Assembly: GCF_000233435.1 (NCBI RefSeq)
Contig: NC_016146.1
Span: 1 to 35,624, forward strand
Direction of reading: 5' to 3'
From: Blattabacterium sp. (Mastotermes darwiniensis) str. MADAR
GTDB taxonomy: Bacteria; Bacteroidota; Bacteroidia; Flavobacteriales; Blattabacteriaceae
DNA length: 35,624 nt
The notes under the pieces are model-generated. The model ran no database searches. It saw only the letters and a list, made by a program, of their open reading frames with translations, and had not been told where the DNA came from. Position numbers and translations under genes: made by a program. Positions 16,538-20,378 of this stretch are shown here, piece by piece. Each line of letters starts with the position of its first letter. Within the stretch, counting starts at the first letter, position 1.

Positions 16538-17062
16538 ATGAAGGAACACAAAGTATTTTTATTTCAAGGAAGTAATAAAGGAAATAGAAAAAAATATTTA
16601 GATGAATCATTGTCCTTAATTTACAAAAAGATTGGAAAAATAGTTCAAAAATCTTCTTATTTTGAAAGCGAAGCTTGGAATATGAATAAAAAAACATATC
16701 CTTTTTACAATAGGGCATTGTGTATAAAAACATTTCATTCTCCTATTGATCTTTTAGAAGAAATTTATGATATTGAATCTTGCATAGGTAGAACTAATAA
16801 AAGTGACTTATTTTCTTCTCAAGAAAAATATAAAGATAGAGAAATTGATATAGATATTTTGTTTTACGATCACATGGTAATCCAAAGTTCTATTTTAACT
16901 ATCCCACATCCTTTGTTACATTTTCGTAGATTTGTTTTAGAACCTATGTGTGAGATAGCCCCAAAAAAATATCACCCTATATTTCATCTTACTGTCTTGG
17001 AAATGTTAGGAGTTTGTATGGATGATTTAAAAATTAAAAAACTAGGTAATTTTATTCCATAG
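16538..17062 (+). CDS. folK: 2-amino-4-hydroxy-6-hydroxymethyldihydropteridine pyrophosphokinase
   Basis: HPPK transfers pyrophosphate from ATP to the pterin precursor in folate synthesis. The 174 residues begin VFLFQGSNKGNR, matching the family's LGSNxGDR. They contain the metal-binding REIDIDILFY (Asp104 and Asp106) and IPHPLLHFRRFVLEPMCEIAP, a long conserved block. The last 25 or so residues look like a variable tail. The ATG at 16538 is the only plausible start. It is divergent from mreB, and the LptD-like gene follows 38 bp later. No other folate gene is in the window. Confidence 0.95.
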   Translation: MKEHKVFLFQGSNKGNRKKYLDESLSLIYKKIGKIVQKSSYFESEAWNMNKKTYPFYNRALCIKTFHSPIDLLEEIYDIESCIGRTNKSDLFSSQEKYKDREIDIDILFYDHMVIQSSILTIPHPLLHFRRFVLEPMCEIAPKKYHPIFHLTVLEMLGVCMDDLKIKKLGNFIP

Positions 17063-17100: not shown

Positions 17101-18657
17101 TTGTTTCAAAAGAAAAAATGGATTTTCACATCCGAAATAATATTGTTTTCTTTTTTGTCCACCATTTTTACTTTTTCTAATGAAAAAAGAAAATATTTTA
17201 TTTCTCTCATAGAGGATATAGAGAAAGGAAAATCTTATTTAGAAGATTTTTCTACTACAAAAATACAATCAAACAGAATAAAAGAAGATTTTTCTACTAC
17301 AAAAATACAATCAAACAGAATAAAAGAAGATTTTTATGCCGATAAAAATATAAATTTGACTTATAATCTTGCTGTCCAAGAAAAAGATCATGTTGATGAT
17401 AATAGTAAAAAAGTCATTGATACAACTGATCCATTTTTTATGGATCAAAAAGAAAAAAACAATAAGAGGATGATCTCATATGGAAATAAAAAAGAGGAAA
17501 TAGGATACAAATATTCATCTTATGAGAGAAAAGAATTTAACGAATCCAATAGTTTTTTTTTCATTAGAAAAAAAATTTATGATATGAACCTAGAAGGAGG
17601 TTTTGTTCATAAAAATGAAGGAGAAAAAAAATTAATAATTCCAACAATTAGTTTTTTTATGCGTCAACAACCTTTCTTGAAAGAAAAAAATCCTTTTTTT
17701 AGTACTTTAATTATGGATTTTCATATTTTTGCATACAATTCCATCAATTATCATCCAATTTTTTCTGATACAGGAATACGAACTGGAATAAATACTAGCA
17801 TAAATATAGAAAACATTTTTCCTGTTTCTACTTGTTTTACAATACATCCAAAAATGAATTACAAAGGTTTTTTTGACACTTTGGATTGTGGATCAAATAT
17901 TCTATTATTTCAAACGATAGAAACATCAACAGATCTACTATTTACAAAAGAATTCTTAAAATTAAAAAGAAGCTCACTATTCAACAACATAGAATCTATG
18001 TTGTCTTTTGGTATTATCTACCGAACCAGTTCTATTGAAAAAAGAATCAATATTGTACTGAATAATAATTGTAAAATAGAAAATAATTTAGAAAAAAAAA
18101 AAATACTTGATTTTTTTCAGATAAAGACTTCTTATATTTTCGATGATAAATCTTTCAAGTGGAAAAATTTCCATTTTATAGGATCTACTGATCTTTTTAC
18201 AAATTGTTTGAAATATCAAGGTGGATTAAACTTTTATGAGGAAGAAGAAGAAATGTATTTTAACTTCCATTTTAAACATCAAATGAATCCTTTTCATAAA
18301 AAAAAGAAATATCGAAAAAAAGGAAAGAATTGTTATGAAGAATTTTTCTTTGAACAGGATAATTATGTTATGTTTCCTATTCCATTGGATATAAAAATTG
18401 ACTTAAGTTATAAAAATTCTTTCAATCAAGAAGAATTGTTAAAAAAATCATTTTTATTAAGAATAAATGGATTTATAGCAAAGTATTGGAATATGGAAAT
18501 GCAAATGGAGTACAATCTATTCCAACATAGAATGGATCTTTTCAAAATTAGTTTTTACAGAAATTTAAGAAACTTAAAAATGAATTTTAACTGGTATCCC
18601 ATAGGAGGAGTAGATCATCGTTACTGGTCTTTTTTTATTGGGGAAAATGAATCATGA
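17101..18657 (+). CDS. lptD: Shortened LptD-like outer-membrane LPS assembly protein
   Basis: LptD is the outer-membrane barrel that inserts LPS. The case here rests on the C-terminal 100 residues or so: an IPLDIKIDLSYKNSF segment, a long amphipathic stretch, and ISFYRNLRNLKMNFNWYPIGG. The last resembles the Bacteroidetes LptD end as I remember it (I.RDLHCWEM.FNW.P.G). An N-terminal hydrophobic segment (about 9-24) looks like a signal peptide. The protein has 518 residues, whereas Bacteroidetes LptD is usually about 850-900, and the first 140 residues are low complexity with a tandem 14-residue repeat. Alternating polar/aromatic stretches in the middle suit beta strands. The start is TTG; an ATG at 17118 is out of frame. 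The neighbour downstream is OstA-like. The symbol is tentative; it could be another degenerate barrel. Confidence 0.6.
   Translation: MFQKKKWIFTSEIILFSFLSTIFTFSNEKRKYFISLIEDIEKGKSYLEDFSTTKIQSNRIKEDFSTTKIQSNRIKEDFYADKNINLTYNLAVQEKDHVDDNSKKVIDTTDPFFMDQKEKNNKRMISYGNKKEEIGYKYSSYERKEFNESNSFFFIRKKIYDMNLEGGFVHKNEGEKKLIIPTISFFMRQQPFLKEKNPFFSTLIMDFHIFAYNSINYHPIFSDTGIRTGINTSINIENIFPVSTCFTIHPKMNYKGFFDTLDCGSNILLFQTIETSTDLLFTKEFLKLKRSSLFNNIESMLSFGIIYRTSSIEKRINIVLNNNCKIENNLEKKKILDFFQIKTSYIFDDKSFKWKNFHFIGSTDLFTNCLKYQGGLNFYEEEEEMYFNFHFKHQMNPFHKKKKYRKKGKNCYEEFFFEQDNYVMFPIPLDIKIDLSYKNSFNQEELLKKSFLLRINGFIAKYWNMEMQMEYNLFQHRMDLFKISFYRNLRNLKMNFNWYPIGGVDHRYWSFFIGENES
17242..17335 (+). repeat. 42-bp tandem duplication within the lptD-like gene
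   Basis: Two identical 42-bp units (17242-17283 and 17284-17325) are followed by the first 10 bp of a third. The unit length is a multiple of three, so the frame is kept and a 14-residue unit (E-D-F-S-T-T-K-I-Q-S-N-R-I-K) appears twice, then EDF again. Perfect identity at the DNA level points to a recent duplication. It lies in the low-complexity region after the signal peptide. Confidence 0.95.
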
Positions 18658-18698: not shown

Positions 18699-20378
18699 AT
18701 GAATACAAAATATCTTTTTTTGTTAGTTTTTCTTCTATTATTTTTCCTAAATTTTAATAAAGGCTATTCTTTCTTTAAGAAGAATAAAAATTCTTTGATC
18801 AGAATTATTCATTCTGATTTTATACAAAAAAAAGAAAAATTACATGATGATGCTTTTTTTTTTATAGGTCATGTTCATTTCCAATATAATGGATATCAAC
18901 TTTTTTGTGATAAAGCTATTTATGAAAGAAAGAATAATAGATTTTATGGATATGGAAATGTTCAGTTAAAGTCATACAAAAAAAAATTTTTTTCTCATAA
19001 AATAGAATTTTCCAAAAATTTTGAAAATATAAAAGCTTCAGGTAAAGTGATTTTATTGCAAAATAATATAAAATTAACAGCAGATGTAATTAATTATAAC
19101 TTTAGAAAAAAAATATTTCAGGCAATAAAAAATGTTTTTTTAATTTTGGATAAATTACGATTATCTACCAATATTTTAGAATACAATCTTAGACTTAAAA
19201 AATTTTCTTATAAAAAAGGAGGTTTTATTTCTTATAGAAATTATTTTTTATATAGTCAGGAAGGATTTTTTTTTCCTATAAAGAAAAGAGCCCTATTAAA
19301 AAATAAAGTAAAATTAATCAGCAAATATTATACTGTATATTCTAATTCTATGGAATGTCTATTTCCGGTAGATAAAATTACTTTTTTCAGCCATACTATT
19401 ATGGTGGATAATAAAAATAGAGATAATTTTTTCTATACGAAAGGAGGTTTTTTTCTTATAAAAAAAGAAATTTTTTTATCCAAAAAATATTGTAGTATAC
19501 ATTATAATGGAAAAATAGTTCAAGGAGATTATTTATTTTACAATCACAAAAAAAAATATGGATTAATAAAAAATGTTTTTTTAGAGGATCCGAAAAAAGG
19601 ATATTCTTTTATGGGAAAAAACGGATATTTTGATTTTAATTCTGGATTATTCTCTTTAAAGAAAGATACAATAGCTGTAGTAATAAAAAAAGATTCAAAA
19701 AAAGATCCCATTTTTATTTATTCTGATATTATCAAAATAAATTTTCAAAAAAATTCTACATATTTGATTCAATTTTTTTCTGTTCAAGGAATTTTTTTAA
19801 ATGAAGAACTTCAAGGAAAAAGTGATTCTTTGGTTTATAACCCATCTAAAAATTACATTCAATTTTATGGAAATCCAATTTTTTGGTTAAAAGATCAACA
19901 GATTACTGGAAATTCCATTTATATGAAGTTGAAAAAAAATATCTTTTCATTAGATTTTTTTAAAATCATAAAAAATGCCTCTTATATAAAAAAAATAGAT
20001 TCGGAAATATTTAATCAAATACAAGGAAAAATTGTTACAGGTTTTTTTGGAAAAAAAAATCTTTTGGAAAGAATTTTAATCCAAGGAAATATTCAAGGTA
20101 TTATTTTTTCAAATCAATTTTATTGTGAAAATCTATATATAGATTTAAAAAATGGAAATGATGTAAAAAGGATTTTCTGTTTAGAAAAAGCAAATTCAGA
20201 ACTTTTCAAAAAAAAAGAAAAAAATTCCTTATTGATTCCTCTATTTTCTTGGAGGGAAAAAGAGCAACCTACAAACAAAAAGTATTTGTTTTATAACAAA
20301 ATGAAAAAATTTAGACAAGAAATTTTATTAGAAAAAAAAGAGATCAAAAAAATTTTTTATGAAAGAATTAGAGAATGA
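18699..20378 (+). CDS. OstA/LptA-like periplasmic LPS-transport protein
   Basis: OstA-domain proteins form the periplasmic bridge that carries LPS from the inner to the outer membrane. The 559 residues start with a hydrophobic signal or anchor (about 5-24). Repeated beta-jellyroll-like units follow; the first contains FFIGHVHFQYNGYQLFCDKA and NNRFYGYGNVQLKS, typical of the OstA fold (G-x-V-x-F, then D-x-A-x-Y, then GNV). Similar units recur near 100-150, 255-310 and 370-400. It is longer than E. coli LptA (185 residues) but normal for the Bacteroidetes OstA-like family. It ends in a charged, Lys-rich tail. The next gene starts 20 bp inside its 3' end. With the LptD-like gene before it, a role in LPS export is a reasonable inference. 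Confidence 0.8.
   Translation: MNTKYLFLLVFLLLFFLNFNKGYSFFKKNKNSLIRIIHSDFIQKKEKLHDDAFFFIGHVHFQYNGYQLFCDKAIYERKNNRFYGYGNVQLKSYKKKFFSHKIEFSKNFENIKASGKVILLQNNIKLTADVINYNFRKKIFQAIKNVFLILDKLRLSTNILEYNLRLKKFSYKKGGFISYRNYFLYSQEGFFFPIKKRALLKNKVKLISKYYTVYSNSMECLFPVDKITFFSHTIMVDNKNRDNFFYTKGGFFLIKKEIFLSKKYCSIHYNGKIVQGDYLFYNHKKKYGLIKNVFLEDPKKGYSFMGKNGYFDFNSGLFSLKKDTIAVVIKKDSKKDPIFIYSDIIKINFQKNSTYLIQFFSVQGIFLNEELQGKSDSLVYNPSKNYIQFYGNPIFWLKDQQITGNSIYMKLKKNIFSLDFFKIIKNASYIKKIDSEIFNQIQGKIVTGFFGKKNLLERILIQGNIQGIIFSNQFYCENLYIDLKNGNDVKRIFCLEKANSELFKKKEKNSLLIPLFSWREKEQPTNKKYLFYNKMKKFRQEILLEKKEIKKIFYERIRE

Follow-up and report, generated by a model that had tools for sequence, protein, structure and literature searches.

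Lpt machinery is commonly taken to mean LPS transport, and LptD normally inserts LPS into the outer membrane. The spirochaete Borrelia burgdorferi likewise keeps Lpt machinery without LPS, and its LptD (BB0838) retains an N-terminal β-taco domain (PMC10353723). LptA docks on this domain of LptD in both E. coli and Borrelia, and the Borrelia system has been argued to carry glycolipids, with lipoprotein cargo disputed (PMC10353723); a role in flipping lipoproteins was argued by He et al. 2023, according to the summary given in PMC13317210. Blattabacterium differs from Borrelia in having lost LPS secondarily, within an LPS-making phylum, and two of its strains have been described as unable to completely synthesize LPS (PMC3287516). 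The literature searched contained no link between Blattabacterium and LptD, the two words occurring together just in a mite study.

The window analyzed here, a stretch of 35,624 nucleotides, is the start of the 587,248-bp chromosome of the Blattabacterium of Mastotermes darwiniensis (genome G000). It contains an LptD gene and the following associated features, all located on the forward strand:

16538–17062, +: folK-like gene 5′ of LptD, in a position conserved in all loci examined.
17101–18657, +: shortened LptD ortholog of 518 aa, with a TTG start and no stops, recognized by homology and synteny.
17101–17178, +: signal-peptide-like start (residues 1–26), matching the starts of congener LptDs by alignment and start codons.
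17215–17454, +: scraps of the OstA/β-taco domain (residues 39–118) lying between in-frame deletions, from a block alignment to the relative G013.
17241–17335, +: perfect tandem duplication (42-nt unit, 2.3 copies) carrying EDFSTTKIQSNRIK twice, found by Tandem Repeats Finder.
17455–17613, +: deletion zone (residues 119–171), in which alignments show about 140 aa of the congeners to be gone, among them GPVFFYWYxVPxPIxxPFxYIP and the strands that open the barrel.
17614–18645, +: what remains of the barrel, its C-terminal two thirds (residues 172–515; dN/dS about 0.28), from hhalign and the codon model.
18699–20378, +: OstA-like (LptA-type) periplasmic protein of 559 aa, intact, with dN/dS about 0.15, recognized by Pfam OstA_2 and LptD_N.

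The gene order mreB–folK–LptD–OstA–argD–truA is conserved in the Blattabacterium loci examined, and the 518-aa ORF sits in the slot expected for LptD; the gene at 16538–17062 we take to be folK. The TTG start is common to the LptD of most relatives in the ORF calls. With other Bacteroidota LptDs (PF19838; other Blattabacterium and free-living Flavobacteriales), the protein shares C-terminal barrel homology, a signal-peptide-like start and, in scraps, the OstA domain. The two peptides on which an earlier, sequence-only reading had based its assignment to LptD, ISFYRNLRNLKMNFNWYPIGG and IPLDIKIDL, are both present in the ORF and align with the LptD of 33 congeners and of free-living Flavobacteriales. 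Direct protein comparison matches the C-terminal part to free-living Flavobacteriales LptD (E down to 9.6e-12), and the profile–profile comparison that the same reading had proposed returned the C-terminal match it anticipated, hhalign of the 518-aa protein alone against eight free-living LptDs covering residues 331–515 (probability 98.2, E 4.9e-14). Across 682 columns (E 3.4e-68), the 33 other Blattabacterium LptDs, taken as a profile, align collinearly with eight LptDs from free-living bacteria.

A search of the whole genome with PF19838 (LptD_2) gave a match at the LptD locus only, barely above the threshold (22.6 bits with the neighbors in frame; cut-off 22.5), and profile A1 found just a weak LptA match among PDB sequences (E 0.59). 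As hmmscan of the 518-aa protein reports no family in Pfam or NCBIfam, the gene is easily left "hypothetical", as had been foreseen. The empty hmmscan result would also suit an ORF of some other barrel family; however, such an identity is extremely unlikely, contradicted as it is by synteny, ortholog alignment, the PF19838 match and hhalign. Judged from these sequence comparisons, the ORF is an ortholog of LptD, and a chance match is excluded.

The protein was rightly suspected of being unusually short: its 518 aa compare with 697–822 aa in congeners (63–74% of their length) and with 831–915 aa in free-living bacteria, the latter range leaving out one sequence ended by its contig end. In a tree of MreB and MreC, the Mastotermes genome groups with G007, G013 and G060 (SH-aLRT 96). 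The LptDs of these closest relatives measure 782–822 aa, hence the comparison of ortholog lengths called for in the sequence-only reading places the shortening in the Mastotermes strain specifically. The block alignment distributes the gaps relative to congeners over many runs, about 251 aa in total. By a conservative count, at least seven of the deletions are larger ones, every one in frame, and recognizable blocks separate those in the N-terminal part; the chance of seven larger gaps all keeping the frame is about (1/3)^7.

Compared with full-length Blattabacterium LptD, which occupies the same gene order, the Mastotermes form is thus some 250 aa shorter and has lost most of the OstA/β-taco domain, the motif at the start of the barrel, roughly one third of the barrel at its beginning, and a short C-terminal tail. 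The OstA/β-taco domain is whole in congeners and, unlike in Borrelia LptD, just scraps of it are left here. The barrel-start motif, in its general form GPxxFYxxxVPxPIxxPF, is present in the other aligned congeners, lined up with free-living LptD, and is gone from the Mastotermes protein. This motif, like the initial strands of the barrel, aligns to the gate region of LptD, and the lost parts are presumed necessary for cargo transfer. Judging by length, the barrel may be short of about six strands. Weak similarity among the blocks within residues 119–171 leaves the exact breakpoints there uncertain. AF2 models built on two-sequence alignments were unusable (pLDDT 27 for the 518-aa protein and no better, at 26, for a full-length control).

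The N-terminal part had been described as low in complexity and devoid of a recognizable OstA domain. The second half of that description holds, the domain being missing as such; the first calls for a correction, in that the region is not featureless and contains the signal-peptide-like start, the OstA scraps EKGKSYL, TKIQSNRIK, QEKDHV and KKVIDTTDPFFM, and the 42-nt duplication. The duplication, located inside the OstA remnant, is the strongest tandem repeat of the window. It is perfect and recent, and it looks like drift.

Two codon-model analyses, run with our own implementation of a standard model, address the constraint on the gene. The Mastotermes LptD branch has a dN/dS of 0.34 against a background of 0.26, and neutrality is rejected (p = 1.8e-4). 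A four-taxon run gave 0.26 for the Mastotermes LptD (supported range 0.15–0.4), 0.155 for the OstA-like neighbor and 0.146 for BamA; divergence is high and synonymous sites are near saturation, and a branch-average dN/dS blends lasting constraint with possible recent relaxation. Purifying selection has acted on the trimmed gene, and recent relaxation is possible. As for marks of a pseudogene, there are no stops and dN/dS lies below 1. Of the 44 columns that show no variation among the 33 congeners, 16 are unchanged in the Mastotermes protein, 13 are altered and 15 are deleted, so that 13 of the 29 invariant residues still present are changed; other strains change 0–7 such columns, save G015 with 13.

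Two other strains carry altered copies of the gene. The LptD of G015 (L112:3337-5625), with its 13 otherwise invariant columns changed, is open; its profile match holds one stop, and this genome has no LpxC. In G016 (L111:3189-9544), a frameshift near residue 577 splits the gene, and the split LptD is followed by a tandem duplication of the LptD C-terminal part and the OstA-like gene.

LptD was found in 36 of the 49 Blattabacterium genomes, LptF/G in 43 and the OstA-like protein in 40, including those with a full-length LptD; the Mastotermes genome itself has two LptF/G genes in addition to the OstA-like gene. A shrunken LptD leaning on its OstA-like neighbor, as had been imagined, finds no backing in this distribution: because 40 of the 49 genomes carry such a protein, also beside full-length LptD, the neighbor is not a compensation. 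In the 13 genomes without LptD, the OstA-like gene is absent (nine) or has stops or a truncation (four), and LptF/G is absent in six of the nine, which makes the losses nested. LptD loss and OstA-like loss are associated at p 3e-7 by counts, a value resting on few independent events. The gene argD, the usual neighbor of the OstA-like gene, is missing or fragmentary in most LptD-lacking strains (L098, L100–L106).

The Mastotermes genome lacks a lipid A pathway. Profile searches for LpxA, LpxD, LpxB, LpxK and WaaA gave no match to any of them in the 49 Blattabacterium genomes, while the same searches do match control genomes, including Bacteroides. Since each of the five families is absent in all 49 genomes, a shared false negative is unlikely. 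In the Mastotermes genome, no LpxA or LpxD lies beside the LpxC–FabZ fusion (L097:7165-8475, corresponding to G000:C1 about 569,160–570,470), the sole locus read directly, with ORFs judged by eye. These absences rest on profile searches, and one absence of that kind, that of BamA by Pfam Omp85 PF01103, was refuted once synteny was checked. The BamA of the Mastotermes genome (L127:2376-4640, 791 aa), missed by PF01103, is present at 57–58% identity, and apparent absences of Omp85 elsewhere in the genus may likewise be false.

LpxC was found in 37 of the 49 genomes, and in the three loci read it is fused to FabZ. All eight LpxC-lacking genomes checked keep an intact FabZ half, the LpxC half being gone or eroded; fusion to FabZ accounts for the retention of LpxC. 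In the KPxH motif of LpxC, the histidine found in G007 and G027, presumably the catalytic one, is replaced with proline in the Mastotermes genome. Seven of the genomes that lack LpxC have an LptD with little or no damage, and the presence of LptD does not track that of LpxC (Fisher p 0.26). At the level of gene content, these surveys show that the Lpt bridge outlasted lipid A synthesis in the genus.

We hypothesize, with a probability of roughly 0.5, that the Mastotermes LptD forms the outer-membrane terminus of an LPS-independent Lpt line, diminished and in the first phase of being lost but still functional to some extent. The bridge, leading from LptF/G in the inner membrane through the OstA-like protein across the periplasm to LptD in the outer membrane, has, by gene content, been kept after the loss of lipid A synthesis. 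Its cargo cannot be ordinary LPS, because the lipid A enzymes are missing; most likely the Lpt system of the genus carries a non-LPS cargo, and the LPS-less Borrelia suggests that this would be another lipid-anchored or glycolipid molecule. In the Mastotermes strain, a series of in-frame deletions has cut LptD to about two thirds of its length, removing the part expected to dock the OstA-like bridge together with the gate strands at the start of the barrel. Selection has retained the frame, the signal-peptide-like start and the C-terminal barrel strands.

The function first suggested for this protein was that of a minimal LPS-insertion barrel assisted by the adjacent OstA-like protein. C-terminal LptD homology and the position of the OstA-like gene agree with it; nevertheless, this function is highly improbable in a genus with five lipid A/Kdo enzymes in none of 49 genomes and in a strain with proline in the KPxH motif and both the gate motif and the first strands deleted. 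It is also improbable, if less so, that the remaining strands make a smaller barrel, a pore or a structural outer-membrane protein. Such a repurposed product would fit the constrained signal-peptide-like start and C-terminal strands, and BamA is present for barrel folding. However, the OstA-like partner would then be roleless, yet it is constrained, and the same form is seen in no relative.

A stronger contender, which we regard as possible though short of an even chance, is a recently inactivated relic in which stops have not yet gathered, representing the first step in a loss order from LptD through the OstA-like protein to LptF/G. Gene erosion in obligate insect symbionts, as in Blattabacterium of Mastotermes and Cryptocercus, offers a familiar setting, with shared stepwise loss and longer forms in sister clades. 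The nested sets of losses, the deletion of a key domain and the gate motif, the 13 changed residues among those retained, the recent duplication and the damaged LptD stages visible in G016 and G015 all point in this direction. In contrast to usual symbiont gene erosion, the Mastotermes frame is still open after multiple in-frame deletions and the gene is constrained, with dN/dS well below 1, and the OstA-like partner is intact and constrained as well. Moreover, the proposed loss order is weakly supported, because few independent losses of LptD (two changes) appear on the genus tree. The Mastotermes LptD is therefore either a reduced working bridge end or a component that has begun to decay, and we slightly prefer the working form because its OstA-like partner is constrained and unbroken.

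Whether a working LptD of about 20 strands, having neither β-taco domain nor gate motif, takes a non-LPS cargo straight from the OstA-like bridge is a separate matter, and we consider it rather doubtful. If true, this protein would be an exceptionally small, LPS-independent outer-membrane end of an Lpt system. The retention of LptD, the OstA-like protein and LptF/G without lipid A synthesis raises the question of what else Lpt carries, for which Borrelia is the studied parallel. The Mastotermes LptD represents a natural deletion experiment, indicating either which parts of LptD are dispensable or how such a machine dies.
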